Shown here in pieces: positions 1-56,665 of a stretch of DNA of 64,000 bases. Position 1 is the first letter of the stretch, and every line of letters begins with the position of its first letter. Source of the stretch: Omphalotus guepiniiformis (taxonomy: Eukaryota > Basidiomycota > Agaricomycetes > Agaricales > Omphalotaceae); NCBI GenBank assembly GCA_028554645.1, contig JAQOOI010000021.1, positions 434,001 to 498,000 on the forward strand. The letters run 5' to 3'. The position numbers and the translations under genes are program-made. The notes below the pieces were generated by a model. That model was given only the letters and a program-made list of their open reading frames with translations. It had not been told where the DNA came from and did no database searches.

Positions 1-795
1 CTGGTATACATAAGAAGCGCTGCGCCTTGCGGAAAAACGGCCTTGTTTAAGCAGCTGACGATACATTTCTCCCTGGCCAGCAAATTCGAGCATGAGGAAT
101 ACTCGCTGGGAGTCATGGAAATAACCATAGAGGCGCAGGATGTTGGGATGGCGAAGGTTCATTTGAATTTCGATTTCACGGCGCAGTTGACGCTCGCAGC
201 GTTCCTTGACGAGCTCGGCTTTGTAGAGGGTTTTAAGAGCGAGAATGTACTGCGGTGGCGTATTTGTTCTGACCATGTACACTCGTCCAAATTTGCCCTT
301 TCCGAGCGGCCGACCAATTGAAAACGAGTGTAACGACCAGTTCGGAGTGGGATTTGAGCTGCTATTGATCAGAAGAGACATATAAATAGAGAGGATATGT
401 ACTCACAGCTTACTCGAGTCCAGGGCAAGATCCGGGGCCTCTTCAAAAGAAACATGTTCATGGTTATCCGATTCCAGTCCTCCGTCATATTTCCCAATAT
501 CAACAGTCATTGCCAACTCAGTGGCATCCTTCGGCTTCGGTGCTTTCGTCTTCGGGGTTTTTGAAGCATTCAAGTCAGATTGACTCGATGTTAGAGAGCT
601 AGAGGCTTTCAAAGAAGAAGAAGAAGAGCTGGCTTTTGAACCAAGTTTCGAAGGTATCGCTGGTTTGCTTTTGTTCAACGGGTTGGGCGCAGCATACTTA
701 GATAGTAGCTTAGCGACTTCAGCGCTAGGTCCTGGATGCTTTTTCGAGATGTCAAGAGAGGAAAACTTGTGAGTTAGCGTCGAGACGGAGGACAT
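1..795 (-). CDS. Aurora-type serine/threonine protein kinase, N-terminal part (3' end outside window)
   Basis: Runs off the left edge. Exon 1 is 795-407 (ATG at 795), a 48-bp GTGAGT..CAG intron follows, and exon 2 starts at 358 and continues past base 1. The first ~130 residues are a Ser/Lys/Pro-rich, disordered tail. Exon 2 begins the kinase domain: glycine loop [13 protein letters not shown]-type lysine in ALKTLYK, the alphaC segment [20 protein letters not shown], and GEMYRQL. The peptide [11 protein letters not shown] with GEMYRQL..GRFS is typical of Aurora kinases (Ipl1/Ark1), the chromosomal passenger kinase that corrects kinetochore attachment. The catalytic HRD and DFG lie outside the window, so activity cannot be judged. 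Family assignment is from the sequence; the mitotic role is family knowledge. Confidence 0.9.
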
Positions 796-1556
796 GGTTC
801 AATGTTGAAAGTCGAAGTCGTGCTGACACAATAATCGCGGCAACATTTGGGGCCGCTGAGTCACATGATCGCGTTTTGCTCCATCCGCTACCGGGCGGCC
901 CGACGGCTTTTCCAGGCCCGCAACTGCTTGCTATTCACACGTATCGAATGTACGCCCGTTCAATATATCAATCTTCCTCAAGTCCAGGCATGATGCTGTC
1001 TTTCGCCCGCCCATGAAGATACATATGTACGTGGAAGATATGTACCAAATCTTATTCTATATATGCCGAAAGTAGTCAACAACGACCCACTTCGTCAGGA
1101 TTCGTGATTTCATTGCCAGAAAAGAAGGGGACTAGTAGTTGTGCACAGCACACAGCATACAATATCGATGTTCTACATGGGCTGTGTCTGCAGCTCGGTA
1201 GTACGGAATGTATGTATTAATATAAATCACAGTTCTCGACTGACGTTAGGAATGATGGAAGGGCGGTTAAAAGCTGTTAAATCGAATGCTGTGGTGCCCC
1301 GTAGTATTTCTGCTCTTTGCAGTGTAGGGCGCATTGTATGAGAATCCTTGGTGCGTCTCTATATCACCTCTTGCAGTTGTCTATCTCCTAACTACTATCA
1401 TAAAGAGCTCAGGCTTTGGTTGGTTTCAAGATCGGTTTGGCGTTTGTTGATTTACTAGGATTTCTAGGTGCGCCATTGTTTCGAGGCCTGGAGACGTACT
1501 CATGATGGCGTAGATCTCGAAGAGTAGCTCAGGAGAAACAAGGAACTGGGGAGGAT
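796..1556. other. Intergenic region between divergent kinase genes
   Basis: About 760 bp separate the start of the Aurora kinase (-) and the start of the TKL-like kinase (+), so promoters of both must lie here. I see CATG-rich and AT-rich stretches but no convincing gene, RNA or repeat. Confidence 0.6.
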
Positions 1557-4500
1557 ATGCCGCTCAATCCTGCTCGTTCGAGCAGTCCCGACGACTCATT
1601 CTCACTTCCTGAAAGCCCTCACTTGCTAAGAAGACCACTATCAAATCTGGACATTTCTTCCATCAATTTCATTCGCGATCAGGCCTTTTTCACTAACCCA
1701 GATATCTTGAAAGAGCTTGATCTGGAAAGCGAAGCCGCTCTCCCCTCTCGTCTTGTCGGCTGTCTAACCGCCGCGCAATACTTTGGGCATCAATACGAAA
1801 CATCTATGGATATACACACCCTGAACAAAGCAATCTGCTGTTATAGGACAGCTGAGGAGGAGAGCAAGGGCGTCGACCCTATTTGCCGCAGGGTTGCTCT
1901 TCAAGGCCTTTCAATCTGCCTTCTTCTTCGATATCAGGCAATGAAGGATCGGTGTGACTTGGATGAAACAATCAACATTTGCTGCGGCAGACCAGGAACA
2001 AACAATGCCCATTGCAATCCTTGGTTCCATCTTCGTGTGGCTGCCAGCTACCACTCACGCTTCGACCACTCGGGGGATATACATGATCTGGAAATCGCCG
2101 TTCAGCACTATCACACTGCTATCTCGCATCCTTTTCCACGCAAGACAGATTATTTAATGGCTCTCAAAGACCTTCAATCTAGTCATCAGGCCTACCCGGA
2201 GTTTAGATCCCTCCTTCTTGCACGGGCTCGCGAAGCCAAACTCGCCGTTGTTTCCCTAGATCCAGACGAGACACATCGGCTCGAGGTGCTGAAGTTGCTT
2301 TTGGACCTCCTTCGAGAGCAATTTCGGCAAAATAGATATCCTCAACTGCTCAAAGAAGCAATTGCTGTTGATCGAGAAATCTTTTTACTCTTTTGGCCGA
2401 TCTGGGAAAAGGAGACATTCTCCGACGCAAAGGGCTTAGTCAATTTGCGGGATTTCACTAGCTCTCTTCCCGGAAAAGCAGTCAAACTGCTGGAGACAGT
2501 GCAGAATGTAGCAGATGATGACGGTGAAACTCCATTGCATCACCAGTATGTCGGGGCTTGGTTTTGCGGTTGGTACGTGTTTGCATATTTGCCTTAGTGG
2601 ATTTGATTAGATTCGGTTATTGGACAGGTTGCGAAATGTAGACTTTTTCCGACTCCTCCTCCTTCGATTGAGAATAAAGCCGCGGCATCTTTCGAGGACC
2701 ATTCATCTTCTGAGTAGACTCGATCGGACTCGGAGATTTCGTGCGACGCTATGCCAGCAGGAACCAGAGCCCGGAAAACCATTCGTATTTATCGTCTCTT
2801 CTTCAAAAGCAAGCGACGAAATTGTTGCTGCCACGTCTGACTACAAGGAGGTTTTCCCTTTCGTGCGACATTTGACAGACGTCCGTGATATCCTGTCTTT
2901 GTCTGATCCTCTTCCATATATTCTTGAAGCGGATGCTGTCTGGGTACCTTCTATTATGCACTTTTTGCAATTGGTAACGATTACCGACTCCATATAATTC
3001 TCAGTTCTGTGACTAAGCATTCGATTCGGCAGGAACTCGATGACCTTGTGTCTCCACATCGCAAGGCATGCCTGAAGCTCCTTCGTGCCCTAGCCAGAAA
3101 GCATGGACTCCTGCCCCCCTCGCTATTTCTAAGAAATGTGAAGCGTCAGGGCGTCAATGCAATCAGAGGCGGAGGGTTTGCGGTGAGCTTTAAATTGCAC
3201 TGGCGGTGTTGTATTCCGTTAAATTTATCTCGATATCTAGGATATTTGGAAAGGAGAAACCTCAGGAAGATTGGTCTGTTTGAAGGTACTGCGGATGTTC
3301 ATTGAAAGCGACGACCGTAGCCGAGAGCGCATCATATGCGTCAGTGACTTCTTCCGTGTCTTCAGCGCTCATAGTGTATCGTGTTTAAACTGCGTTCTCC
3401 AGCAATTTTGTCATGAAGCTCTGTTGTGGAGACAATTAAATCATCCGAATGTACTTCCATTTCTGGGCGTCAGCACCGAATTGTTTGCTCCCGGATTCTG
3501 TCTCATCTCACCATGGATGAATAACGGAGATATTGTGACTTTCTTGAAGAATAACCCGCATCACGACCGACTGGACGCTGTATGACTATTTCTCTGATCA
3601 TTGTCAACGTACTCATAGCTGGTCATGCACAGATCTATGAAGTCTCGAAAGGTCTCGCGTACCTTCATTCCCTTTCACCTCCAATCGTCCACGGAGACAT
3701 AAGAGGAGTATGTGGTTCTCCTCTCATTAGACTGACGATGTCTTTCATCTGATCATATCCCTCGGCCTTGTAGGCGAATATCCTAGTGGATGATGATTTA
3801 CGATGCTGCCTCGCAGATTTCGGACTAGCGTTGGCCGCGGAGTCGCAAGTACTAGCAAGCACCACAGGCGGATTACGGGGATCTGTTCGTTGGATGGCTC
3901 CTGAGCTCATGGACAGAGGTGTAACTCAACATCAAGGCCGACCGCGGGACAAGACACCACGGGATATTTATGCATTCGGTTGCACCACCTATGAGGTATC
4001 TATGCTCATACTACAGCAAGAGGCTTTTCGTGCTAACCCTGACCTATCAATATAGATCCTCACCGGAAAACCCCCATTCTCGGAGCAGACCATGGAAGTA
4101 ACCGTGATTCTGGATGTCATTCGTGGCCGCAGACCCGCTAGACCCACCGATATGTGGTGTCCAGATAGCGTCTGGAACCTCATCGAGAAATCTTGGACGC
4201 AAAATGCTCGGGAACGTCCTAGGGCGAGCAATGTCCGTAACTTCCTCGACCGACTGAGTCTCCTCCGAAAGCGGAATGTGGATGACTACCGCACACTGGA
4301 GTTTGATGACGATACGAGCGGTCCGATTTTTATTGACCTCTCAGACGATGACGAGTGCGATTTGCAAAGTCATTGTGGGTCGGATGATGAAGGCACAAAG
4401 AGTCCGAGTCCGACGCCGTGGGGACAGAGAGGAGTAACACCTGACAACCCGATTGAACTCGATTTTTTTGAGCCCGCTAACAAACCGGACCAGAGAGGAG

Positions 4501-4804: not shown

Positions 4805-5296
4805 AGCGAACGACGCTATTGCGTCGGGTTTGATGGCGGACAAATGGCAGGCCCTGCACGAGCATTTTGACAGTGCACATGGTGTAGACTTAGTGTACAT
4901 GTATTTCTAGGTGCCATTGTAAATCATCGTAGTATTTTTTTTACTTGGCTTAAACACATACACTGCAGAGAATTTATCCCATTCATGAAACACTGAAATT
5001 AGAAACTTTGAATAGTGATGTAACTAACCGAGGGGTAGGTAGGGTATATCCAAGAAGGTGAAAATAATGATAACAACGAGAACCAAACCGTCAAGGAGAG
5101 GGAGGGGGAGGAAGGATTCAAAAACAACCTATTCACAACAAAAGAATCCATCCACAAAGCGGATAATAAATCAAGCAAAGAAAAAAAACACCGAACCAAT
5201 AGTTGTACCCACAACTCCATCTACACACATTCACAACTCAAAACTAATAACCAAAAAAGCGCCTTGCTCTCCCCATCCTTATCCCATCTCCTCGAA
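4805..5296. other. Intergenic region between convergent genes
   Basis: About 490 bp between the stop of the TKL-like kinase (+) and the stop of the RhoGAP gene (-). It should hold both 3' UTRs. A/T-rich with poly-A tracts near 5180; no gene or RNA recognised. Confidence 0.6.
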
Positions 5297-8024
5297 TCAT
5301 ACCCCACCCCCACCCTTCGCCTCCAAACTCCCACTAACCGGCAACGGCGGAACAGGCGGAACAGTCCCATTCATCGGAGGCGCAAAAAATCCCTCAGCCG
5401 TAATACCCATAGCCTCAACCCCAGCCCCAGCAGATTTCCTCATAGTTCCTCTCCCAATAGAAATAGATCCTTTCCTACCGGTAGTTCCCAACGCCCCACC
5501 ACCACCTCCACCACCTCCACCAGCAGCACCGCCAATTGACCCCCGCTCGATACTGATGGTGGATTTGGCTTTAGATTTGTTGAACGTGGGGTAAGCGAAT
5601 GATGAAGGTGCAAAGTGGCTTGAAGAATTTTCGGGGCTACCGCTGCCAGCGCCAGAGGCGATGTTGTGGAGTGAGCGGACGCCTCGGGAGGTAGAGGAGC
5701 TGGTGGAGAGTCCTGTACGGTGACGTGGGCGGTAAGTTGAGTTTGAGGTTGGGGTCGGGGTCGATGTTGATGCTGTCACACCACCGCTGCTGCCCCAAGT
5801 ACTTGGTGGACCATCATTCCCATTGGGTTGAATTGTCGTTCCAGAGAAGGTATGTCCGTGGCTTGGACCTATAGGCATAACCAACATCGCATCGTCGATA
5901 TCCTCATCATCATCATGTGCCCCGCCTGTACTGCTCTGTCGTCTATGATGCTGATGAGCCCCACCGACAAATTCATTAAACTTGAACCCATTCGAACCAC
6001 CCCCCACCGCCTTGTTTTCATCCTCACTAACCCCACCACTCGCACTCGGACTTGGACTCCCACTCCCACTCCCACTCCCGCTCCCACCATCAACAAACTC
6101 TCTCTCCACATGTCCCACAGGTAACAGCGCCTCACTCCGATCCACAACTTCATCAAAAACCTCATAATACCTCTGTATACAAAGTTTCACAATCGCACCC
6201 AACGTCGTCTTATTTTCCGATAATGCCGCTTTATTCAGTGTAGACGGCGCTGGGGGGACATTCGATTCAAAGATGGCTGGGCCGCCTGGTACAGCACACA
6301 TTAGGACGTCCCGAGCGGGATTTGTACCTGAGACGAGATTAGGGCAGAGGACGACGGCGAGGTTGTGTGCGTCCATTCTGTTTGAGGCTGAGCGCAGGGA
6401 TACTTCGTGCATTAAGTCTAATAAAGATAGTGTGGGTGATTGATCAGAGGATAGGGGAGAAGATGATTGCGACTTACGCAGGACATGGCTAAGCAGGATA
6501 TACACGCAAGGCGGTAACTCCGGTAATAGCACCTCTCGAATATACATAACACTCGTCATATCCGTCAAATCACTCGACGGCATCGGACACCTCCTTATAA
6601 CAGGGTAAAGCATCTCAGGAAAAACAGGCGTCGGTAAATCCCTGAGATATTTCTTCAACAATACCGCAGCTAAATGAGGATCGCCAAATGTATCCAGGGA
6701 AACGACATTGCCTCTGTCATAAGCTTCTTGTGCGGCTCGAAGCATAGCTGAGGGTGGTGATCGTCTGAAAAGACCTTCCTCTTGTAATCCAGTTTCACGT
6801 AGAAACTGGATAGCGTCTTTTACGACCCGGGGAATACCACCTTTTTCTCCTTCGTATCCCATTATGTCTTCGAGTGGTACGCCAAAGACGCTAGAGGGTG
6901 CGGGTATTGGAAGAACAATCTTTTTCTCGTGTTTGAGGTTTTCCCTGTGATGAGATGAGAAGTTCAATGTGATGTAATGGGCCATGGAAAAGGGGGAACA
7001 TACTGATAGACAGCAGGAGCGATGTCGATCTGAGTGAGTGGTACGTGGTAGGCAAGTTCGGAAAGGGAGTCGATGTAGGATATCTTGCGAAAGAATTTCG
7101 GACTACAGGGAGGGAAATTACTAGGGTGCATCCTTTCGAGAAGAAAGGAGCCAACCTGATGATTGCACCTGCGAGAGAGAAAAGCACTAGCCACCATATG
7201 TCAGTTCTCGTATCATCATTTCTATTGGCAAAGATAAGAGCGTACTCTTGGAGAAAAACGACGAGTGAACGATAAACTAAATCCATGCGTTGAGTGAAGC
7301 GAATTCATTCTTAGTATGGCGAAACTCACCAGTCGTTTCAGATTCTTTCGATATTTCCGACTCAAGCTGCGATGAGCCTTCCATACCCAACTCCATCCGG
7401 GCGTATGCTTCCCACCAGCGGCGAAAAACACAACTGTATAGTCAGACTCCACTACGAAAAAGGTGAGCCAGGCATTACTTGTTGATAGATACTTGCCTAC
7501 CATAAAGGTTGAGATAAGACAAAATCCGACTAGAAGCACGAATCTATCGTCAGCGGCGCACTTTAAGGGGGCGCATGGGGGGTAAACGTACGAAAGCAAA
7601 AGATCATAGTTGACTTCTCGAGGATCAGGCAATGCAGAAGCATTTATCACAACCCTATTCTCACAATCAGTCTTATAAAGGACTAGAACGAAAAGTCAAG
7701 ATGTTTACATTGGACGCGTCCTGCGAAACACCTATGTTAAACGCCCCGGGTTTCACCAATTCAAAACTCTACTCACTCATAATCAACCCCGGCCTGAAAA
7801 ATGACCCTCGACATAACTTCCTGAACAAGCTCCCTACCTTCCTGCTCTACATTCACTCCAGACTCTCCATTCCGCTTTGTCCATGGGGGTGTGAAGAAAG
7901 TTTTTCGGCGAGGACTGATTGGAGAACGAAAATGAGAATCGGAAGAAATGGGAGAGCTGGGGGCTGAAGGAGCTATTGAGAGTGCAGCTAGTCTCTGCTT
8001 CAGGCTCAGATTGCTCGGAGGCAT
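5297..8024 (-). CDS. Rho GTPase-activating protein with CRAL-TRIO/Sec14-like domain
   Basis: Nine exons: 8024-7777, 7654-7592, 7529-7501, 7451-7330, 7276-7246, 7186-7156, 7102-7004, 6944-6478, 6417-5297; 736 aa. Residues ~80-230 form a Sec14/CRAL-TRIO-like lipid-binding module (VVINASALPDP, YTVVFFAAGG, MLFSLAGAIISPKFFRKI). The RhoGAP domain follows (~240-450): VFGVPLEDI, then EEGLFRRSPP with the arginine finger, VLLKKYLRDLP, and NRMDAHNLAVVLCPNLV. This order is that of p50RhoGAP/ARHGAP1 and fungal Ecm25-like proteins, which switch off Rho/Cdc42 at membranes. The last ~250 residues are low complexity (Gly, Ser) with a GGGGGGGGGA run. The start is supported by the N-terminus LSLKQRLAALSI. The intron between exons 1 and 2 is longer (122 bp) than the rest. 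Which Rho protein it acts on cannot be read from sequence. Confidence 0.9.
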
Positions 8025-39848: not shown

Positions 39849-40538
39849 AATAGTTGAGTTCCTGGAGTTGATCATAGGCATAATATGTCTTCGCAGAGCT
39901 GCCTGCAATCAAGCTGGATAATTAGTTCGGTATGTATGCGACTCACCATACTTCCTGTAAGAGCTATCACATGAGAAGCTTTCCTGGAACATCAGAACTC
40001 CAAGTATCCGTAGAGTGTGCGTGCATTATAAAATCATAGAAGTTGAGGCCTTTGAGGTGCTAGACCTCGGATATTCGAACTTCGAAGGTTTCCATTTGTT
40101 GATTTTGGCTCCCATAACTTGTGATTACTGCCTTGAATGTCGGAAGTCTGAATGTAGGTGCCTCTCCGCGGGCCTCCAAAGCTTCATTGCGTTTAGGTCA
40201 TTTCAAACCGGCTCCTTGAGAATTCCGAAGATGACATACAGGGTACTAGATATGTACATTAACCGGCTTGGGGTCCAAGTGCTGAAACGCCGGCTCGATT
40301 ATGGCTCTTGATGAGATGTTCATGTTATCTTGCAGTTCAAGGTGAGAGCGGGTATCAAACGATACAGTGACCGTCTGAGCTCAGCCTGCTGACGCGCCAA
40401 CCCAGGCGTCACCTGACTCGGTAAGACTTGACCCGATACGATATCTATGCAAGCCGTTATACGTAGTTTCAGCTGGCAAAACCCTTTTCATGAGCTCTCA
40501 CGTCTAGTGGAATACTAGCAGACCTATCTGTGCAACAA
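39849..40538. other. Divergent promoter region of UbiA copy 3 and the MDR gene
   Basis: About 690 bp between two divergent starts. An open frame 40015-40311 (Cys-rich, LECRKSECRCLSAG) has no recognisable domain and is not called. Contains GCGTCACCTGACTCGG near 40407; no repeats noted. Confidence 0.5.
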
Positions 40539-40798
40539 ATGGAAGTCAAATTGCGGCAGAAGGCGCTGACTTTGGATCAAGAGTTCCAGCTTCACATCTG
40601 CGAAAGAGAGATTCCTAGGCCACACGCAGGGGAAGTTTCAATCCGAGTCACTGCAGCAGCTTTGAATCCGGGCGATTGGAAAGTCAAACAATGGGGTATC
40701 AAGATTGAAGGCCAGCCTGTGATCCCTGGTATGGACATGGCTGGTACAGTAGTGGAAGTGGGAGAAGACGTTATAGGGTTCCAGAAAGGTGATAGAGT
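40539..40798 (+). pseudogene. Medium-chain dehydrogenase/reductase, exon 1 (gene split by insertion)
   Basis: ATG at 40539 opens the GroES-like N-terminal domain: HAGEVSIRVTAAALNPGDWK, VIPGMDMAGTVVEVG, FQKGDRV. Exon 1 should end after GATAGAGT at 40798, where a GT donor is expected; instead a 3.9-kb element begins at 40799. Reading on gives ~20 foreign codons (TNSECNEGF..) and a stop at 40861. The rest of the gene continues at 44724. Enzymes of this branch (enoyl reductase/quinone-reductase type, often in fungal clusters) use NADPH and usually lack the zinc ligands; no catalytic Cys-His zinc set is seen here. Confidence 0.88.
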
Positions 40799-41283
40799 TA
40801 CGAATTCGGAGTGTAACGAAGGATTCGTTCTTATGGCGGGCACCGTCCAGCCAAAAATTTGACGGTTAAGCGGGCCTCCGCTTTGATCGGAAGCGACCTT
40901 AAATTGTATATGTAATAACTGTATATTAGTCAGCATTTTCGGCCCTCGTTTTTGCGCACTTATGGTCAGTTAAGCTGGCCTCGGTTAAGTCGGTTGTCAT
41001 TGCCGGAGGCCTGATTAGTCAGCGTTTTCTCTTGCGCTCCGTGGTCAGTTAAGGCTGGCCTCCAGTTCAATCGGTCCGTCCTTGCCCCGAGGCTCGTTCT
41101 GCCCCTCATCTGCCCCCTCATTTTTGTGCTCCATGCCACTGGCAGGACTGGGTTAGATATTATTTTGAGGTTGTTATAAACATAAGATATTCTAGGAGGT
41201 CCAAGTTATAAATGTATTAAAACAAGATGTTAAATACAAGTAAAAAAAACACATTTTTTGTAAGAAACATGTAATTTTTTATA

Positions 41284-41488
41284 CACTGGATGAAATTTTA
41301 ACATAAAATCTGTGAGAAAATGCTAAACATATGTTGAATTAATACGGCATTTTTTTGCTACTAATACTAAAATTATGTTGAAATTATAGTAAATTGTATC
41401 AACACAATACCTTCATTTCTCCAACATCAAACACAGTGATTTACAGTGAACAGATGTTGAACAAATATCAAAAATCATTTATCATAAA
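41284..41488 (+). repeat. Internal inverted repeat arm of element A (left)
   Basis: Begins CACTGGATGAAATTTTAACA and ends ..ATTTATCATAAA. It is an imperfect reverse complement of 44421-44634 (ends CCAGTG), about 205-214 bp long. Confidence 0.85.
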
Positions 41489-41499
41489 ACTTTAATTAT

Positions 41500-41880
41500 A
41501 CACTCTGTACACCTGTATACACCATGTATACACCCTGTCACATGTGTATACACCTGTATACACCTGTATACACCCATATACACCCTGTACACCTGTATAC
41601 ACACTGTCTGTATACAGGGTGACAGATGTACAGGGTGTATACAGGTATACAGGATGACATGTATACAGGATGTATACAGAGTGTATACAGGGTGCATACA
41701 GGGTGCATACAGGTGTATACAGGGTGCATACAGAGTGTATACAGAGTGCATACAGGGTGTATACAGAGTGCATACAGAGTGTATACAGAGTGTATACAGG
41801 GTGTATACAGGGTGTATACAGGGTGTATACAGGTGGGAGTGTATACAGTGTGTATACAGAGTGTATATGGGTGTATACCT
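41500..41880 (+). repeat. 11-bp satellite array 1 of element A
   Basis: Units of GTGTATACAGG and variants (GTGCATACAGA). The first ~110 bp are in reverse orientation (CCTGTATACAC); orientation switches at a palindromic hinge near 41595-41620. All six frames are open, which produces long meaningless reading frames. Confidence 0.92.
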
Positions 41881-42715
41881 TGTCTGTATATACCTCACCT
41901 TGGAAACATCTTCTGTACGCAAGTTGTATATATTAACCCCTATGTTCTGTATACAGAGATATCAGTGTCCATCTACTAGGTCCATGCAGATGCATCCTGG
42001 ATGTATACACATGAGATATGCAAGATGAATTCACCTAATACAACTGTATCCATATACACAGACTATATACATAAATGATCCTGTTTACCATAGTTTTTTG
42101 TTATTTGTTTAAACATATAGCCAGTATATATGAACAACCAAAACATACATTTTACCATCAGATATTTAACATTACTTTCACATATGTTTAGCATAAGTTC
42201 ACAGTAATTTTCTGTCTGTTATTCTGGATCAATTTTAAATTGGTTTAGCATATTTTTCCACACATCTACACCGCCAAGAATTCAACATAAATCCCATGGA
42301 AAAATATTACAATATGGTGAAATAACATGAAAAATTAAACTTTTGATGTAATTTCACCATATTTTTTAACATTTTTCCATGGAATTTATATTGAATTGTT
42401 TGCAGTGCTATTCTATTTCTCTCTGTATTTCACTCTGAATATATCTTATTTGTTCAGCATATCTTCAGTATATTTGCACCAGCAAAACATGAATGTTTAT
42501 TTTAGAAACATTTAACATTAGTTTCACATTTGTTTAGCATAAGTTCACAGTAATATCCTGTCTGTTATTCTGAATTGATTTTGAATTGCTTTAGCATAGT
42601 TTCCACACACCTTTTCCATTTGTCTCTGTATTTTATGATGAAACAATCATGATCTTGATTAACATAATTGCATCCAAAATTCAATATTTATTTTAAACAA
42701 TTTTCTCAAAAATAA

Positions 42716-43690
42716 TGTATAGAGTGTATATAGGGTGTATACAGGTCTACAGGGTGTACTACAGGGTGTATACAGGGTGAGATGTATACAGGGTGCATAC
42801 AGGGTGCATACAGAGTGCATACAGGGTGCATACAGTGTGTATACAGGATGCATACAGGGTGTATACAGGGTGCCATACAGGGTGCATACAGGGTGCATAC
42901 AGGGTGTATACAGGGTGTATACAGGATGTATAATCCTGTATACAGAGTGTATAAAGGGTGTATACAGCGTCAGGCTGGATACAGAGTGTATACAGAGTGT
43001 ATACAGGATGTATACAGGGTGCATACAGAGTGGATACAGGGTGCATACAGAGTGTATACAGAGTGCATACAGGGTGGATACAGGGTGAATACAGGGTGGA
43101 TACAGAGTGCATACAGGGTGGATACAGAGTGCATACAGAGTGCATACAGAGTGCATACAGGGTGTATACAGAGTGTATACAGGGTGTATACAGGGTGTAT
43201 ACAGGGTCAGGCTGGATACAGAGTGTATACAGAGTGCATACAGGGTGTATACAGAGTGTATACAGGGTGTATACAGGGTGTATACAGGGTCAGGGCTGGA
43301 TACAGAGTGTATACAGAGTGCATACAGGGTGTATACAGGGTGTATACAGGGTGCATACAGGGTGTATACAGGATGCATACAGGGTGTATACAGGGTGCAT
43401 ACAGGGTGCATACAGGGTGCATACAGGGTGTATACAGGGTGTATACAGGGTCAGGCTGGATACAGAGTGTATACAGGATGTATACAGGGTGCATACAGAG
43501 TGGATACAGGGTGCATACAGAGTGTATACAGGGTGGATACAGGGTGGATACAGGGTGGATACAGGGTGGATACAGAGTGCATACAGGGTGGATACAGAGT
43601 GCATACAGAGTGCATACAGGGTGTACACAGGTGTATACAGAGTGTATACAGGATACAGGGTGACATGTATACAGGGTGTATACAGAGTTT
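42716..43690 (+). repeat. 11-bp satellite array 2 of element A
   Basis: About 975 bp of head-to-tail 11-mers, mostly GTGTATACAGG, GTGCATACAGG/A and GTGGATACAGG, broken by CAGGCTGGATACAG and GAGATG interruptions. Variants are mixed along the array in higher-order patches. Apparent proteins of up to 293 codons are artefacts of the repeat. Confidence 0.92.
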
Positions 43691-44420
43691 TTATATGGTG
43701 TATACCTTGTCTGTATATACCTCACCTTGGAAACACCTTCTGTACACAAGTTTGTATATATTAACCCCTCTGTTCTGTATACAGAGATATCAGTGTCCAT
43801 CTACTAGGTCCCATGCAGATGCATCCTGGATGTATACACATGGGATATGCAAGATGAATTCACCTAATGTACAACTGTATCCATATACACAGACTATATA
43901 CATAAATGATCCTGTTTATCATAGTTTTCTTATTTGTTCAACATATAGCTAGTATATATGAATAACCAAAACATAAATTTTACCATCAGAAATTTAACAT
44001 TACTTTCACATATGTTTAGCATAAGTTCACAGTAATTTTCTGTCTGTTATTCTGAATCAATTTTAAATTGGTTTAGCATATTTTTCACACATCTATTCTA
44101 TTTCTCTCTGTATTTAACTCTGAATATATCTTATTTGTTCAGCATATCTTCAGTATATTTGCACAAGCAAAACATGAATGTTACTTTAGAAAACATTTAA
44201 CATTAGTTTCACATTTGTTGGGCATGAGTTCACAGTAATATCCTGTCTATTATTCTGAATTGATTTTGAATTGCTTTAGCATAGTTTCCACACACCTTTT
44301 CCATTTGTCTCTGTATTTTATGATGAAACCAATCATGATCTTGATTAACATAATTGCATCCAAAATTCAATATTTATTTTAAACACTTTTCCCAAAAATA
44401 ATGATAAGATTTTATGGAAT

Positions 44421-44634
44421 TTATGATAAATGATTTTTGATATTTGTTCAAGATCTGTTCACTGTAAATAACTGTGTTTGATGTTGGAGAAATGAAGGTA
44501 TTGTGTTGATACAATTTACTATAATTTGAACATAATTTTAGTATTAGTAGCAAAAAAAATGATGAAAAATTTTGGTATTGATTTCAATATATGTTTAGCA
44601 TTTTCTCAGATTTTATGTTAAATTGTGTCCAGTG
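44421..44634 (-). repeat. Internal inverted repeat arm of element A (right)
   Basis: Imperfect reverse complement of 41284-41488, reading TTATGATAAATGATTTTTGA to GTGTCCAGTG. Located ~86 bp from the right end of the element. Confidence 0.85.
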
Positions 44635-44723
44635 ACAGTTTTGTCTGTATTGCATGCACAGATGTGCTGCCAAAACTGATTCGTTCCCGCCTGCATCCCG
44701 TGATGCAGGCTGACAGTCCAAGT

Positions 44724-45738
44724 GTGAGTCTAGAGGACATGCAGTATTTGATGCGTTTACTGAGGACAAGAATAGGATAACTATGGGCACTTGGACACCT
44801 GAAAGTTCGTCTTTTCAACAATATGCTCGTGCGACTGCAAAGTTTGTTACGAAGGTGAATGAAGACGTTTCGGCCTGGTTCTTTCTAACGCTGGGTAAAG
44901 GTTCCGGATCATATTTCTGACGAAGAAGCGGCCTCAATACCAGTCGGGATATTGGCAGCTTGGATTGGACTTTACAATAATCCCTATGGTGCGGGATATC
45001 CACACCCATTCAGCAATACTCGGGGCGAAATCATGCCTCTTCTCGTGCTTGGCGGATCCAGCTCTGTAGGGCAATACGGTAAGTGAACAGTATGGCCCTT
45101 TATGACATCGGAACCATCTTTTCTCTTCCAGTACTGCAGTTCGCGAGGTTATCAAAGTTCTTTCCTATCGTGACTACAGCGTCCGTTCATCATGAAACTT
45201 ACCTGAAGTCATTGGGTGCTACTCATGTTCTCAATCGACAACTTGCGGATGAAGACATTATGGCAAATATCAGGAAGATTACAAATCGTTCCTTTCCAAT
45301 CGTCTTTGATGCGATTTCCTCTGCTGAGACCAAGAGATTAGGATATGCCATGGTAGCAAGAGAGGGAAAACTGTTGACGGTTGACACCCGCTTTGGGAAT
45401 TTCACGCGTCCTATCGGCGAGAAATTGACATTCAACCCAGACCTTGAACATCCAAAGTGTATCGTGAACGTCAGAGGGGTCACAATTGACCCCGATACTG
45501 CTACTATGGCGGAACTACTGTTCGCTAATCTCAATCGCCTATTACAAGACGGGTCAATAGTTGTAAGTAGGCATGCAACCAATTGCGTGTATAGTGAATT
45601 ACTGATTGCTTCCAGCCCAACAGAGTTGAAGTGTTGTCGAATGGGCTTTTGGGTGTTCCCGAGGGTTTGGTGAGGCTTGAAAGTGGCTCGATCTCAGGAG
45701 TCAAGTTGGTTGTCCGACCACAGGAAATGATATTGTAA
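44724..45738 (+). pseudogene. Medium-chain dehydrogenase/reductase, exons 2-5 (continuation after insertion)
   Basis: The original intron 1 (GTGAGTCTAG..GAATAG, 44724-44775, 52 bp) follows the element directly. Exons: 44776-44854, 44901-45078, 45132-45562, 45616-45738. With exon 1 the frame closes at 356 aa, normal for the family. Cofactor domain: DEEAASIPVGILAAWIGLY, LVLGGSSSVGQY (nucleotide-binding GGSSSVG), KSLGATHVLNRQ. C-terminus GLVRLESGSISGVKLVVRP. No further stop or frameshift, which suggests the insertion is recent compared with the decay time of the gene. Part of the candidate biosynthetic cluster. Confidence 0.88.
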
Positions 45739-50396: not shown

Positions 50397-52715
50397 GCTT
50401 TTCGGGTGATGCTTTCCTGTTGCTTCTTGGCTGTGTATATTCATTATATGCATATTCATTTAAAACGCCATGTATGTATAACTTGGGATATTTCGCTCGC
50501 TAAGGATATGTCATTGTTTTAGTCTCAGTTTGGGGAGGTGAGCTTGACTCTGAGAATAATGATTCCAAGATATTCAAAACGCTATGAAGAGTAAATGCGA
50601 ACGTCGAATGTCTGTATACCCTCGACCAAGATTTCCTGGTATCACTAGCCTTCAAGCCCTCCACCTCACCAGAGGTGATGCTTTGCTCGTGGTCCCAAAC
50701 TCCCTCGGGGGTTTCGACACCATACCGGAACAATCTGCATTGGAGCATGCGAGCCTCTTACGAGGTTAGGGTACACCTGGAAAAGAATGTTCAGCCACTC
50801 GATCATCTCACGCATGCATCAAGAATCTTACTGGGCCTTATCATGCCTTGCACGGCCTCGCAATCATGAGTCTCGACACCTTTGTCGAGGTACACGGTCC
50901 TTGCGCGCATGCCACTACAGGATATACTGCATCAATTTCTCGTCTCGAGAATCAACGGCTACGCCTGTCTTATAACCACGTCAAGGTCCTGGTGAAGATT
51001 TTCACGTCAGCTGTATTCGCCAGAAACACCAATACGTCTCGACGTTCATCAATACGACGAGAATCGAGAAAACGTAGCCCTGAAGCTCACCTGCAGCAAG
51101 CCTTCTCAATTTTTTTCGGGGGAGGAGAATGGTATTCCTGAAAGACGAACACCTGCGACTGCGAACAACACCTGATGTTCATATGAATTGGAAAGCTGAA
51201 CAATCAATGAAACGAACCTGGTTCAACGTTCAGAAAACGCGGAATTGTCGGTGGTAGTCATTGTATGAGTTGTGTGTGGTGTACTTCGCATGCCTTGCCT
51301 TGAGTCTTGGAATGCTACACCAGCTTACAAGCATAACTGTAAGATGACACGTCAACAGAGCTTACCAGGAGCGAGAAGACACAGCGTACCTCATAATACT
51401 CGGGAATTAGACATCTTCTGGATTACACTCTTCGATGTATGTGAGGAATGGCGAGCCACCAACAGAAGCACGCCTATCGTCTTGCGGCCCAGGATGATAT
51501 CTGTAATTGAAGAGTGAACAGACAAGCAACGTGCCCGAGAACCATAAACCCCTCACCTATATTGTTGTTGCTCGAACACGGCACATGAAGACTTGGCTAC
51601 AACCAGCACTCCTCTGTTACTGCTTGTCGTTGTAGTCGAGAGTCTAGCAGTTCCATGACATAGGTCGTTGTTTGGAAGCTGATTTGAAGAGCATATACGA
51701 AGAGTTTTGTGAATAATGGTTGGGTTTCAAAAGAATTCTCAACACACCTGTCATATCCGTCAGTATACAGCCACAGGACAATGCCTGCGTCATTGAATGG
51801 CGGGCTTCGGCTCTTTGGATCGCGTCCTTATTCGAGATTTGGCGCCATTCTGCAGTTCTGTTGAGACTGGAAGGAGTAACAAGTAAAATCCAGTCTCTAC
51901 TGTAGCCTTGGTCTCAGCTCTGGACCCGCATATCCCGCTCCTAGGGTGTCGGAGGAGACGCCAAGACTTGGATACTCAAAGAATATTCCTAGCGCAAAGA
52001 GAAGACGATGTAAACGGTGTTCATGACGTTGAAGGCAGGTTGAAGGAAGGGCGATGAGCGGAGATCATAATTGAAATCGAAATTACAGAATACATTATGT
52101 CAGCGGATTACAGGAAGTAAACACGGTGTTGCCAAACAACGTACCAATTTCGGTAATCGCGCTCGTGCTTGAGAATGTCCGCACAGCGATGTCGATGAGC
52201 CTCAGGCGTTGGCTCCAATGTTTCGTCGCTTTACGTTCATGAACTGCTTACCATCTATCTGGCTCTCCCTCATGAAGCATGATTTTAAACTTTCCTGGCC
52301 TCTGCACATCCCTACATGACTGGCAGGACCTACTGACCCAGAACCTCTGAATTCTCGGTATCCCTCTGACGCTTATATCCGATTTTTGTTGCGCGCACGC
52401 TAGCGAAACTCGTACACGTCCTCGTCGAAGAGCACAAAGATAGTAAGCAACAGGCAATGCTATCATCTCTGTCCCTGGCCCGCACCTTCCTTGGGAAGAA
52501 ATCGTGAAACTATGCAACGAAGAAGACAACGTATGGAGTGTTGTTAATGGTGCTTATTTGATTGTGCAATAAGAAGGGTTGGATATGTGCGGTGTTATAT
52601 GTGCCTAAGAGGTAGCTATACAGTTCAATGTGTATTCTCATTCTCCTCGCTGATGGTGCACCCGTGGTGTAGGGATCAACAAATAATTAAATCGACGTCA
52701 CCTACTTCCCATACT
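50397..52715. other. Gene-poor stretch between the 7TM gene and element B
   Basis: About 2.3 kb with no recognisable gene on either strand. Short open frames (50848-51141 plus, 52248-52529 minus) lack domains and intron-consistent neighbours. Composition resembles normal unique DNA, so this may be remnants of decayed genes. Confidence 0.5.
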
Positions 52716-55562
52716 TGGACTGTCAGCCTGCATCACGGGATGCAGGCGGGAACAAATTCAGTTTTGGCAGCACATCTGTGCATGCAATACAGACAAAACT
52801 GTCACTGGACACAATTTAACATAAAATCTGAGAAAATGCTAAACATATATTGAATCAATACCAAAATTTTTCATCATTTTTTTTGCTACTAATACTAAAA
52901 TTATGTTCAAATTATAGTAAATTGTATCAACACAATACCTTCATTTCTCCAACATCAAACACAGTTATTTACAGTGAACAGATCTTGAACAAATATCAAA
53001 AATCATTTATCATAAATTCCATAAAATCTTATCATTATTTTTGGGAAAAGTGTTTAAAATAAATATTGAATTTTGGATGCAATTATGTTAATCAAGATCA
53101 TGATTGTTTCATCATAAAATACAGAGACAAATGGAAAAGGTGTGTGGAAACTATGCTAAAGCAATTCAAAATCAATTCAGAATAATAGACAGGATATTAC
53201 TGTGAACTTATGCCCAACAAATGTGAAACTAATGTTAAATGTTTCTAAAGTAACATTCATGTTTTGCTTGTGCAAATATACTGAAGATATGCTGAACAAA
53301 TAAGACATATTCAGAGTTAAATACAGAGAGAAATAGAATAGATGTGTGAAAAATATGCTAAACCAATTTAAAATTGATTCAGAATAACAGACAGAAAATT
53401 ACTGTGAACTTATGCTAAACATATGTGAAAGTAATGTTAAATTTCTGATGGTAAAATTTATGTTTTGGTTATTCATATATACTAGCTATATGTTGAACAA
53501 ATAAGAAAACTATGATAAACAGGATCATTTATGTATATAGTCTGTGTATATGGATACAGTTGTACATTAGGTGAATTCATCTTGCATATCCCATGTGTAT
53601 ACATCTAGGATGCATCTGCATGGACCTAGTAGATGGACACTGATATCTCTGTATACAGAACAGAGGGGTTAATATATACAAACTTGTGTACAGAAGGTGT
53701 TTCCAAGGTGAGGTATATACAGACAAGGTATACACCCATATAAACTCTGTATACACCCTGTATACATGTCACCCTGTATACCTGTATACACTCTGTATAC
53801 ACCTGTGTACACCCTGTATACACTCTGTATACACCCTGTATACACCCTGTATACACTCTGTATACACCCTGTATGCACTCTGTATGCACTCTGTATGCAC
53901 TCTGTACTCTGTATCCACCCTGTATGCACTCTGTATCCACCCTGTATCCACCCTGTATCCACCCTGTATGCACTCTGTATACACTCTGTATGCACCCTGT
54001 ATGCACTCTGTATCCTGTATGCACTCTGTATCCACCCTGTATGCACCCTGTATCCACTCTGTATGCACCCTGTATACATCCTGTATACACCCTGTATGCG
54101 CCCTGTATGCACCCTGTATGCATCCTGTATACACCCTGTATACACCCTGTATGCACTCTGTATGCACTCTGTATGCACTCTGTATGCACTCTGTATGCAC
54201 CCTGTATGCACTCTGTATGCACTCTGTATCCACCCTGTATGCACTCTGTATACACCCTGTATGCACTCTGTATGCACCCTGTATACATCCTGTATACACT
54301 CTGTATACACTCTGTATGCACTCTGTATGCACTCTGTATGCACCCTGTATACATCTCACCCTGTATGCACCCTGTATACACCCTGTATGCACCCTGTATG
54401 CACCCTGTATGCACCCTGTATGCACTCTGTATGCACCCTGTATACATCCTGTATACACTCTGTATACACTCTGTATCCAGCCTGACCCTGTATACACCCT
54501 GTATACACTCTGTATACAGGATTATACACCCTGTATACACCCTGTATACACCCTGTATACACTCTGTATACACTCTGTATGCACTCTGTATACACCCTGT
54601 ATGCACTCTGTATACACTCTGTATCCACCCTGTATCCACCCTGTATCCACCCTGTATCCACCCTGTATACACTTTGTATACATCCTGTATACATGTCATC
54701 CTGTATACCTGTATACACCCTGTACATCTGTCACCCTGTATACAGACAGTGTGTATACAGGTGTACAGGGTGTATATGGGTGTATACAGGTGTATACAGG
54801 TGTACAGGGTGTATATGGGTGTATACAGGTGTATACAGGTGTACAGAGTGTATAATTAAAGTTTTATGATAAATGATTTTTGATATTTGTTCAACATCTG
54901 TTCACTGTAAATCACTGTGTTTGATGTTGGAGAAATGAAGGTATTGTGTTGATACAATTTACTATAATTTCAACATAATTTTAGTATTAGTAGCAAAAAA
55001 ATGATGAAAAATTTCCGTATTAATTCAACATATGTTTAGCATTTTCTCACAGATTTTATGTTAAATTTCATCCAGTGTATAAAAAATTACATGTTTCTTA
55101 CAAAAAATGTGTTTTTTTTTTTACTTGTATTTAACATCTTGTTTTAATACATTTATAAGTTGGACCTCCTAGAATATTTTATGTTTATAACAACCTCAAA
55201 ATAATATCTAACCCAGTCCTGCCAGTGGCATGGAGCACAAAAATGAGGGGGCAGATGAGGGGCAGAACGAGCCTCAGGCAAGGACGGACCGATTGAACCG
55301 GAGGCCAGCCTTAACTGACCACGGAGCGCAAGAGAAACGCTGACTAATCAGGCCTCCGGCAATGACAACCGACTTAACCGGAGGCCAGCTTAACTGACCA
55401 TAAGTGCGCAAAAACGAGGGCCAAAAATGCTGACTAATATACAATTATTACATATACAATTTAAGGTCGCTCCGATCAAAGCGGAGGCCCGCTTAACCGT
55501 CAAATTTTTGGCTGGACGGTGCCGCCATAAGAACGAATCCTTCGTTACACTCCGAATTCGTA
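52716..55562 (-). mobile_element. Satellite-bearing insertion element, copy B (2,847 bp), inverted, ACT target duplication
   Basis: Reverse-complement relative of copy A. Flanked by ACT at 52713-52715 and ACT at 55563-55565, i.e. AGT in element orientation, the same 3 bp as copy A. Its ends TGGACTGTCAGCCTGCATC.. and ..CACTCCGAATTCGTA match those of A. It has one A/T-rich unit and one satellite array, whereas A has two of each. Inverted arms lie at 52803-53016 and 54864-55077. No host gene is recognisable at the insertion site. Confidence 0.85.
53731..54855 (-). repeat. 11-bp satellite array of element B
   Basis: About 1.1 kb (roughly 100 units) of CCTGTATACAC-type 11-mers and variants, with an orientation switch near 54730-54750 (CACCCTGTATACAGACAGTG). 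Open in all frames on both strands for up to 389 codons; none of these is called as a gene. Confidence 0.92.
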
Positions 55563-56665
55563 ACTTTCCTCTCGCCTCGAGAGCGCAAGTGCGAGAGGGG
55601 GGGAATTTTGTGGCTATGTTCGAACGTACGTACCTCGAAGTTAACAACACCCTTCCCTCCAAACGTTGACACCTTCTGATATATCAGGGAAACGGCAAGA
55701 TCGACTTCACTACCTACCTCTCTACGCTCTCCTCTCCCTCCTGGCCAGCGGCGAGCGGGCTGTCAACGACTCGGAGTGGGCTATCAACAAGTATTGCCAT
55801 AGGATTGCGCTCGGGTATAGAGAGATCACGGATGGATCAAAGAAGTTCAGTGACCAGCTTACGCTTAATATGGTGGGCTGGGAGTTGCTTGGTGAACGTT
55901 TGAACTCTTGTGAGCAAATTCTCGGCGATAGAGAGGGGTGTGTTTGGCTCGTTCCGCTTGGTTTCTTTCCTGGTTTTGACCCGCCCTTTCAAACATCCTG
56001 CAGTAGATTAGGCACAAGGAGGTCCCACAGATACATAGTTGGAGGAAATGAAAGGTTTCTAAGGCCCTCCATACCAGGTGGAGGTTACATGGCAAGGTCA
56101 CCTGACCGCGCCTGTAATTACATTACGTAATATGTATTCTGTATTTTCGAAAAGATTCATTTTTTGGATGAGCGCCAGTTGGGCGCTCAAGCGCTCATGC
56201 ACCCAGGGAAAAACGCGTCGTTTCAGAAGATTTCGCAGCGATTGAGGTCGGATCCACTTAAGCGAATCACTAGGAAACGTTGAAAGTGAGAATACCACAA
56301 TGGGAGCATATGGCGAATCCTTTGACGTCGTTTCGTGTGTTCTCGCATTGTTTCACACTGACTCAATCTTCTAGCTATTCGCAATCGATTTCAATAGATG
56401 GCTCAGGAAACTGCCTCACGATATAAAACTATTTGGACATATAATGCACCGCGCAATGTATTTTGATATCGTTTCTATAGATTGCTTGTTACACTACACC
56501 ATCCAGCCCAGTGCGCCACAATGGCCATGACACCCCACCTCCTCTGTGATTCCCCCATTTCGAGGCTCGAAGCCAATTGTCTGGCGGCGGGCTGGGTATG
56601 TCCGAGTCATCATTTTCATGCCTTTTACCATAGTCTTGTTAGCACATGCCGCGAACAAAGGAAGT
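55563..56665. other. Region between element B and the three-gene transposon
   Basis: About 1.1 kb. A frame 55666-56130 (YLPLYALLSLLASGERAVND, WAINKYCHRIALGYREITDG) has mildly coding character but no domain; it could be the 3' remnant of a gene interrupted by element B. CACTACACCATCCAGCCCAG at 56492 begins with CACTA but finds no partner at the other side. Confidence 0.45.

Follow-up and report, generated by a model that had tools for sequence, protein, structure and literature searches.

A satellite-bearing transposon family in Omphalotus guepiniiformis that is very probably a non-autonomous Helitron2

The 64,000 nucleotides of Omphalotus guepiniiformis DNA considered here (GCA_028554645.1, contig JAQOOI010000021.1, positions 434,001 to 498,000 of the forward strand; hereafter the window) contain two related elements, copies A and B, with both ends and most of the body in common. 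A first-pass annotation, made from the letters alone, had recognized the shared ends and suggested an undescribed transposable element family with hairpin termini, 11-bp satellite arrays and a constant 3-bp AGT flank. What kind of transposon is this, and how does it choose its insertion sites? Two copies alone made the element look unclassifiable; an alignment of the flanks of 37 left and 42 right ends, together with nine empty sites, allowed its assignment to Helitron2. We conclude that A and B are very probably (probability about 0.94) non-autonomous, satellite-bearing Helitron2 elements, similar to HINEs, that are moved by rolling circle through a Rep-helicase acting in trans. The suggested family is real, and it fits the rules of Helitron2, a group that the first-pass annotation had not considered.

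Termini, copies and insertion sites

The family left end reads TT followed by ACGAATTCGGAGTGTAACGAAGGATTCGT, and the right end reads GAATTCGT-TCCC-GCCTGCATCCCGTGATGCAGGC-TGACAGTCCAAG. The two copies in the window and the terminal features of A are as follows.

40798..44722, plus strand: copy A, entire element TTACGAATTC...TGACAGTCCAAG, with G (40797) and T (44723) as the adjacent host bases
52714..55563, minus strand: copy B, entire element, with an empty paralogous site at C65:151382-151487
40800..40828, plus strand: left terminal hairpin of A, ACGAATTC...GGATTCGT
40800-40807, plus strand: 5' asymmetric inverted repeat of A, the first 8 bases of the left hairpin, 2 bases from the end
44678..44684, plus strand: 3' asymmetric inverted repeat of A, GATTCGT, which is GAATTCGT in most listed family copies
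44689..44710, plus strand: 3' hairpin of A, GCCTGCATCCCGTGATGCAGGC, 12 bases from the 3' end
44711..44722, plus strand: 3' terminus of A, TGACAGTCCAAG, followed by host T

Together, ACGAATTC and GAATTCGT form an asymmetric 8-bp inverted repeat, with one copy in the left hairpin and the other just inboard of the right hairpin, 4 bases upstream of it in most listed right ends. The ends had been described as not being inverted repeats of each other, a view that this repeat contradicts; it is hidden in the window because the right-hand copies of A and B are each altered, that of A by the loss of one A (GATTCGT) and that of B by one change (GAATTTGT). Hairpins at both ends were recovered when the termini were folded as single-stranded DNA. 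The right end reached -11 kcal/mol (z -4.75, with 0 of 200 shuffles as good) and the left end -5 kcal/mol (z -1.95, with 7 of 200 as good), so that the left hairpin is weak on energy alone.

We then considered the family across the genome (42.5 Mb in 80 contigs, including the window; loci are given by C number). Copy numbers are pattern counts: a 30-mer of the left end occurred 39 times exactly and 42 times with up to 3 mismatches, a 21-mer of the right end 57 times exactly and 68 times with up to 2 mismatches, and reversed control patterns for both searches gave 0 matches. We read the sequence flanking 37 of the left ends and 42 of the right ends. A right end on the same strand was paired with 32 of the 37 left ends at 2.3-10.0 kb and with two others only at 17 and 23 kb; for the remaining three, a right end lies 2-4 kb away in the pattern count, outside the paired set. 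More left ends of the same type were present at C65, C63 (two), C69 and C71, each with a same-strand right end 1-6 kb away. When the last 104 bases of A were compared with the genome, the best 40 of 58 candidates comprised A itself, 30 sequences at 99% identity and nine at 98%. From this right-end identity the family is probably young, and the near-identity of ends among copies suggests that it has probably been active recently. At C14, two copies stand head to tail with zero bases between them (CCAAG|TTACG).

The flanks followed a simple rule. The base 3' of CCAAG was T in 42/42 right flanks, and the base 5' of TACGAATTC was T in 37/37 left ends. Before TT, the host base was G in 23 left flanks, A in 9, T in 5 and C in 0 (n = 37, one of these flanks being the first copy of the head-to-tail pair, which precedes the second). 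The base preceding that host base was A in 19/37. The G in the nearer position and the A in the farther one both stood out against local background in a binomial test (p 1e-6 and p 0.001, respectively), and AG together preceded TT in 14/37. G stood before TT in all six further left ends (those at C65, C63, C69 and C71, and that of the C20 relative described below). Copies without the AGT flank, an outcome that the first-pass annotation had itself named as refuting, are thus present, and the constant flank proposed earlier does not hold: 14 of the 37 left flanks carry AG, and the AGT on the right is the element's own AAG followed by a host T.

Comparison with empty paralogous sites, as the first-pass annotation had advised, defined the insertion at base resolution. 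Left and right flanks were joined and searched for 28 of the 32 pairs (13 + 15), leaving out both head-to-tail copies and one of a close pair; copy A was searched apart. A bridging empty site was found at no fewer than nine of the 28 insertion sites, which is a lower bound because DNA searches score the best 40 candidates only. For these nine sites (copy B, C37, C14:166119, C38, C31, C59:299462, two at C76, and C68), twelve alignments were inspected at single-base level; of the many matching places for C38 and C59, one and two, respectively, were included. Exactly one T fewer was present at the junction in 9/9, placing the insertion 5' of T. Eight are G|T or A|T, and C68 can be read as A|TT or AT|T. 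One further base difference lies elsewhere in each of the C31 and C68 sites, and at one C76 site the right flank matched only in part. The element can accordingly be described either as TTACGAATTC...TGACAGTCCAAG inserted 5' of a T or as TACG...AAG accompanied by a 1-base T duplication; the two descriptions are indistinguishable. The joined-flank search returned no empty site for copy A. A 72% match to the C18 joint at C34:67086 was not counted since it lies inside a family copy.

As a separate observation, two family copies lie head to head about 60 bases apart at C76:106463-106583, both within one repeat, and empty copies of that repeat are present at C77 and C74.

Longer relatives with a Rep-helicase

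Downstream of Rep-helicase genes, in the direction of coding, the right 21-mer recurred at a distance of about 7 kb: exactly at C20, C45 and C75, and at C41 with one mismatch. A two-mismatch version lies 11 kb downstream of Rep at C76:330698. In the C75 relative, Pfam identified DUF6570, Helitron_like_N and PIF1-type domains, and no endonuclease domain, in an open frame of 2256 aa. Among PDB sequences, the helicase half of the frame matched Helraiser (3e-13) and the Rep half had no match. The right end of this relative is 86.7% identical to that of A over 45 bases and 87% to other copies over 47. A tandem array of other units lies downstream of its gene.

For C45, C41 and C20, the 7-8 kb leading into the Rep region was read; these stretches are 99.0-99.8% identical to one another and yielded no left end, and C75 diverges from them just upstream of the gene. 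The 10-mer TTACGAATTC occurs at 128 places, against 25 for the reversed control, and among the first 100 of these 128 is C20:730685, a left end 84% identical to that of A over 234 bp. The C20 relative would be 24.1 kb long (706556-730685) and lies on the same contig as the window, with its gene oriented relative to the ends as A is drawn. The first-pass annotation had suggested looking for a full-length autonomous relative with the same ends; longer relatives with matching ends and a Rep-helicase gene are present in the same genome, with both ends identified at C20 alone, in an element read in part. In a tree of 22 Rep regions of the genome, C41, C45, C75 and C76, taken as having family-type right ends, and three with ends of the canonical kind fell into separate supported clades, in a data set where 15 rows had no end type assigned, 28/500 label shuffles were as clustered and a long-branch warning applies. 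C47 had been a further candidate for a relative with the family right end and was dropped, as the right end there is that of a normal copy of the A type (93% identical to A over 1662 bp).

Two other features of the C75 relative may be recorded. C-terminal to the helicase, its frame (stretch 1-3686) contains a Cys box, DNSCAYD, and later GDQHY, which by eye look cysteine protease- or deubiquitinase-like; this C-terminal part had no Pfam match. Helitrons with deubiquitinase domains are already in print (PMC9741609). Between the array and the right end (stretch 5055-5513) is a 153-aa open reading frame (ORF) with Pfam matches to T5orf172 and MUG113, both below cut-off.

Classification, rival explanations and proposed mechanism

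By the definition of Bao and Jurka (2013, PMC3627910), Helitron2 has a repeat of 8-15 bp that is located 0-2 bp from the 5' end and forms the 5' hairpin by pairing with the bases that follow, a partner repeat that adjoins the 3' hairpin on its upstream side and is 20-30 bp distant from the 3' end, and a 5' T. The present family resembles this description in its short asymmetric terminal repeats, of which the 5' copy lies in a predicted 5' hairpin and the 3' copy upstream of a second predicted hairpin (A and B carrying one change each), and in its preference for a 5' T, with one T gained at every empty site in place of a multi-base target duplication. It differs in its targets, which are TTTT|T or C in that description and (A)G|T here, and in the position of the 3' repeat, 38 bp from the end. 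Other known layouts fit less well. A strict Helentron or HINE would have an endonuclease in the partner protein, absent from the Pfam matches of the 2256-aa frame, and would insert in TT, whereas G|T or A|T was the target at eight of the nine empty sites, with the ninth ambiguous. Helitron1 has a 5' TC, a 3' CTRR and A-T insertion, whereas these ends are TT...CCAAG with G (23/37) or A (9/37) as the usual preceding host base. Terminal inverted repeat transposons have inverted repeats at their extremes and duplicate at least 2 bases, whereas here the repeat is asymmetric and one base is gained. The earlier judgment that the layout is not that of a terminal inverted repeat, long terminal repeat or LINE element, nor one following canonical Helitron rules, was thus sound.

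Among described systems, non-autonomous Helentron derivatives (HINEs; Thomas 2014, PMC4067079) have their 3' repeat 38-60 bp from the end. HINE and DINE-1 elements share with A and B the subterminal inverted repeats, 3' palindrome, central tandem repeats and lack of a gene, and differ in their TT or poly-T targets and in the endonuclease of their Helentron partner (PMC4067079). Cg_HINE of oyster likewise has a satellite-like array between two end modules and has spread genome-wide, but its targets are T-rich, its host is an animal and its array units are unrelated by description (PMC7492417). FoHeli of Fusarium oxysporum is a fungal Helitron2 with asymmetric repeats, and with hairpins at both ends in two subgroups, but it targets TNAT|T and its terminal sequences differ (PMC5148889). 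HELPO1 and HELPO2 of Pleurotus ostreatus are basidiomycete Helitrons, some of them non-autonomous and one with satellite sequence; unlike A and B, they have canonical Helitron1 ends and AT insertion (PMC4289320), as does the nested C61 Helitron discussed below. A Helitron2 is mentioned for Agaricus bisporus (PMC12730594). A limited literature search found no title on a satellite-bearing Helitron2 in basidiomycetes, which is weak evidence of absence.

Several points weigh against the Helitron2 assignment. At the termini, the left hairpin is weak, the inverted repeat has the minimum length allowed for Helitron2 (8 bp), and its 3' copy, at 38 bp from the end, exceeds the 20-30 bp of Helitron2 and sits at the lower limit of the 38-60 bp given for HINEs (PMC3627910, PMC4067079). 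The (A)G|T preference is not among the target rules found in the available parts of these sources (TT, TTTT|T or C, TNAT|T). The remaining points concern the putative partner: A and the C75 relative agree in their right ends over 45 bases only, and a relative with both ends was identified at C20 alone, in an element of 24.1 kb of which about 14 kb is unread (706641-712168 and 721301-730099); there, the Rep match is split across two frames and the joined-flank search found no empty site.

An alternative source of the Rep-helicase was suggested by the 10-kb family copy at C61, within whose ends the opposite strand carries a Rep-helicase frame of 1636 aa. If this protein mobilized the family, A would have arisen by internal deletion from an element whose gene is reversed, an arrangement known for some Helitron2. 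C61 was at first accepted as the autonomous form on account of this frame, and was then rejected because the insert has a canonical Helitron end of its own. Sequence that is continuous in A is interrupted in C61 by an extra 6.7 kb (C61:403602-410303), whose 3' end is CTAG with a hairpin and which sits between the A and T of the uninterrupted sequence. Near copies of this insert, 100% identical at C79 and 97% at C36 over the 1.6 kb compared, lie in other flanks. The C61 insert is a nested canonical Helitron, not the partner, and we consider its opposite-strand gene a very improbable driver of the family.

Two other explanations appear even less probable, and about equally so. A Crypton-like element, moved by a tyrosine recombinase and having a short sequence common to element end and target, would agree with the absence of classical terminal inverted repeats and with the short base match at the junctions, but not with asymmetric inverted repeats and hairpins at both ends or with relatives that have a Rep-helicase and matching ends. 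The AG before TT and AAG before T in A, B and the C61 copy could likewise suggest a cut-and-paste DNA transposon of some other type that has hairpins at its ends and duplicates a 3-bp AGT target, as the first-pass annotation implied. Such a transposon is refuted by the nine empty sites, where one T rather than three bases was gained, and the left AG is found in 14 of 37 copies only.

As a non-autonomous Helitron2, the family may be mobilized in trans, with the Rep-helicase of the longer elements with matching ends driving rolling-circle transposition of A and B. A HUH/tyrosine Rep would nick (A)G|T at the 3' end of the element and in the target, the helicase would peel off one strand starting at the TT end, and the 3' hairpin with the inverted repeat could act as the stop mark. 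The AGT on both sides would then reflect nick-site preference rather than duplication, with host AG on the left and the element's AAG, then T, on the right, and the satellite, lying between two end modules, would be a passenger. The preferred target is similar to the 3' junction of the element itself, AAG|T, as would be expected from a single nick specificity. That one motif, (A)G|T, serves for both the 3' end and the target in this Helitron2 lineage, with target choice set by Rep nick specificity, is a tentative proposal to which we assign slightly less than even odds.

If correct, a shared nick motif would account for the gain of exactly one T at single-T sites, unlike the poly-T targets of Helentrons. 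It would also allow a copy to insert exactly at the end of an older one, as in the C14 pair, giving satellite-bearing elements a route to building arrays. Helentron borders are usually blurred by poly-T targets (PMC4067079). In the present family most sites consist of a single T within mixed sequence, which fixes the borders to within one T and opens the nick specificity of a Helitron2 Rep to direct testing. The family adds a further case of satellite arrays spread by rolling-circle elements, as in oyster (PMC7492417); Helitron2 itself is already known as a kind, and the useful part is the clean single-T insertion rule.

Two observations concern the nested C61 Helitron itself. Its C79 copy contains two stops. 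Sequences about 70% identical to its 3' part, at C42, C22, C57, C69, C74, C75, C15, C78 and others, keep helicase fragments with stops and are probably decayed or non-autonomous relatives.

Layout and content of copies A and B

Between its termini, copy A contains inverted arms and tandem arrays, and B has a corresponding main array.

41284..41488, plus strand: internal inverted repeat of A, left arm, pairing with 44420-44634 at 87.6% identity
44420..44634, plus strand: internal inverted repeat of A, right arm, pairing with 41284-41488
41497..41878, plus strand: first tandem array of A, with 10-11 bp units, including an 11-bp array at 41660-41878
42724..43705, plus strand: main 11-bp array of A, about 92 units
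53728..54693, minus strand: main 11-bp array of B

The internal arms, estimated earlier at about 210 bp, and the 11-bp arrays agree with the first-pass description. Two direct repeats of about 85 bp had also been proposed; a looser search detected only short, degenerate ones at comparable distances (16 nt at spacing 89 and 14 nt at 104), and none was found at the stricter 20-nt setting. Copy A is overlapped by 19 ORFs of at least 60 aa. Six of the 19 were scanned against Pfam, yielding three matches, all below curated cut-offs, and no transposase, in line with the earlier failure to notice a transposase-like frame.

Copy A lies inside a gene for a protein with an alcohol dehydrogenase domain (ADH_N), which it divides in two (window 40530-40799 and 44723-44870). 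The reading frame of this host gene at the insertion is ambiguous, and the target rule was decided without it. The ADH_N match at copy A runs to profile position 60 of 104.

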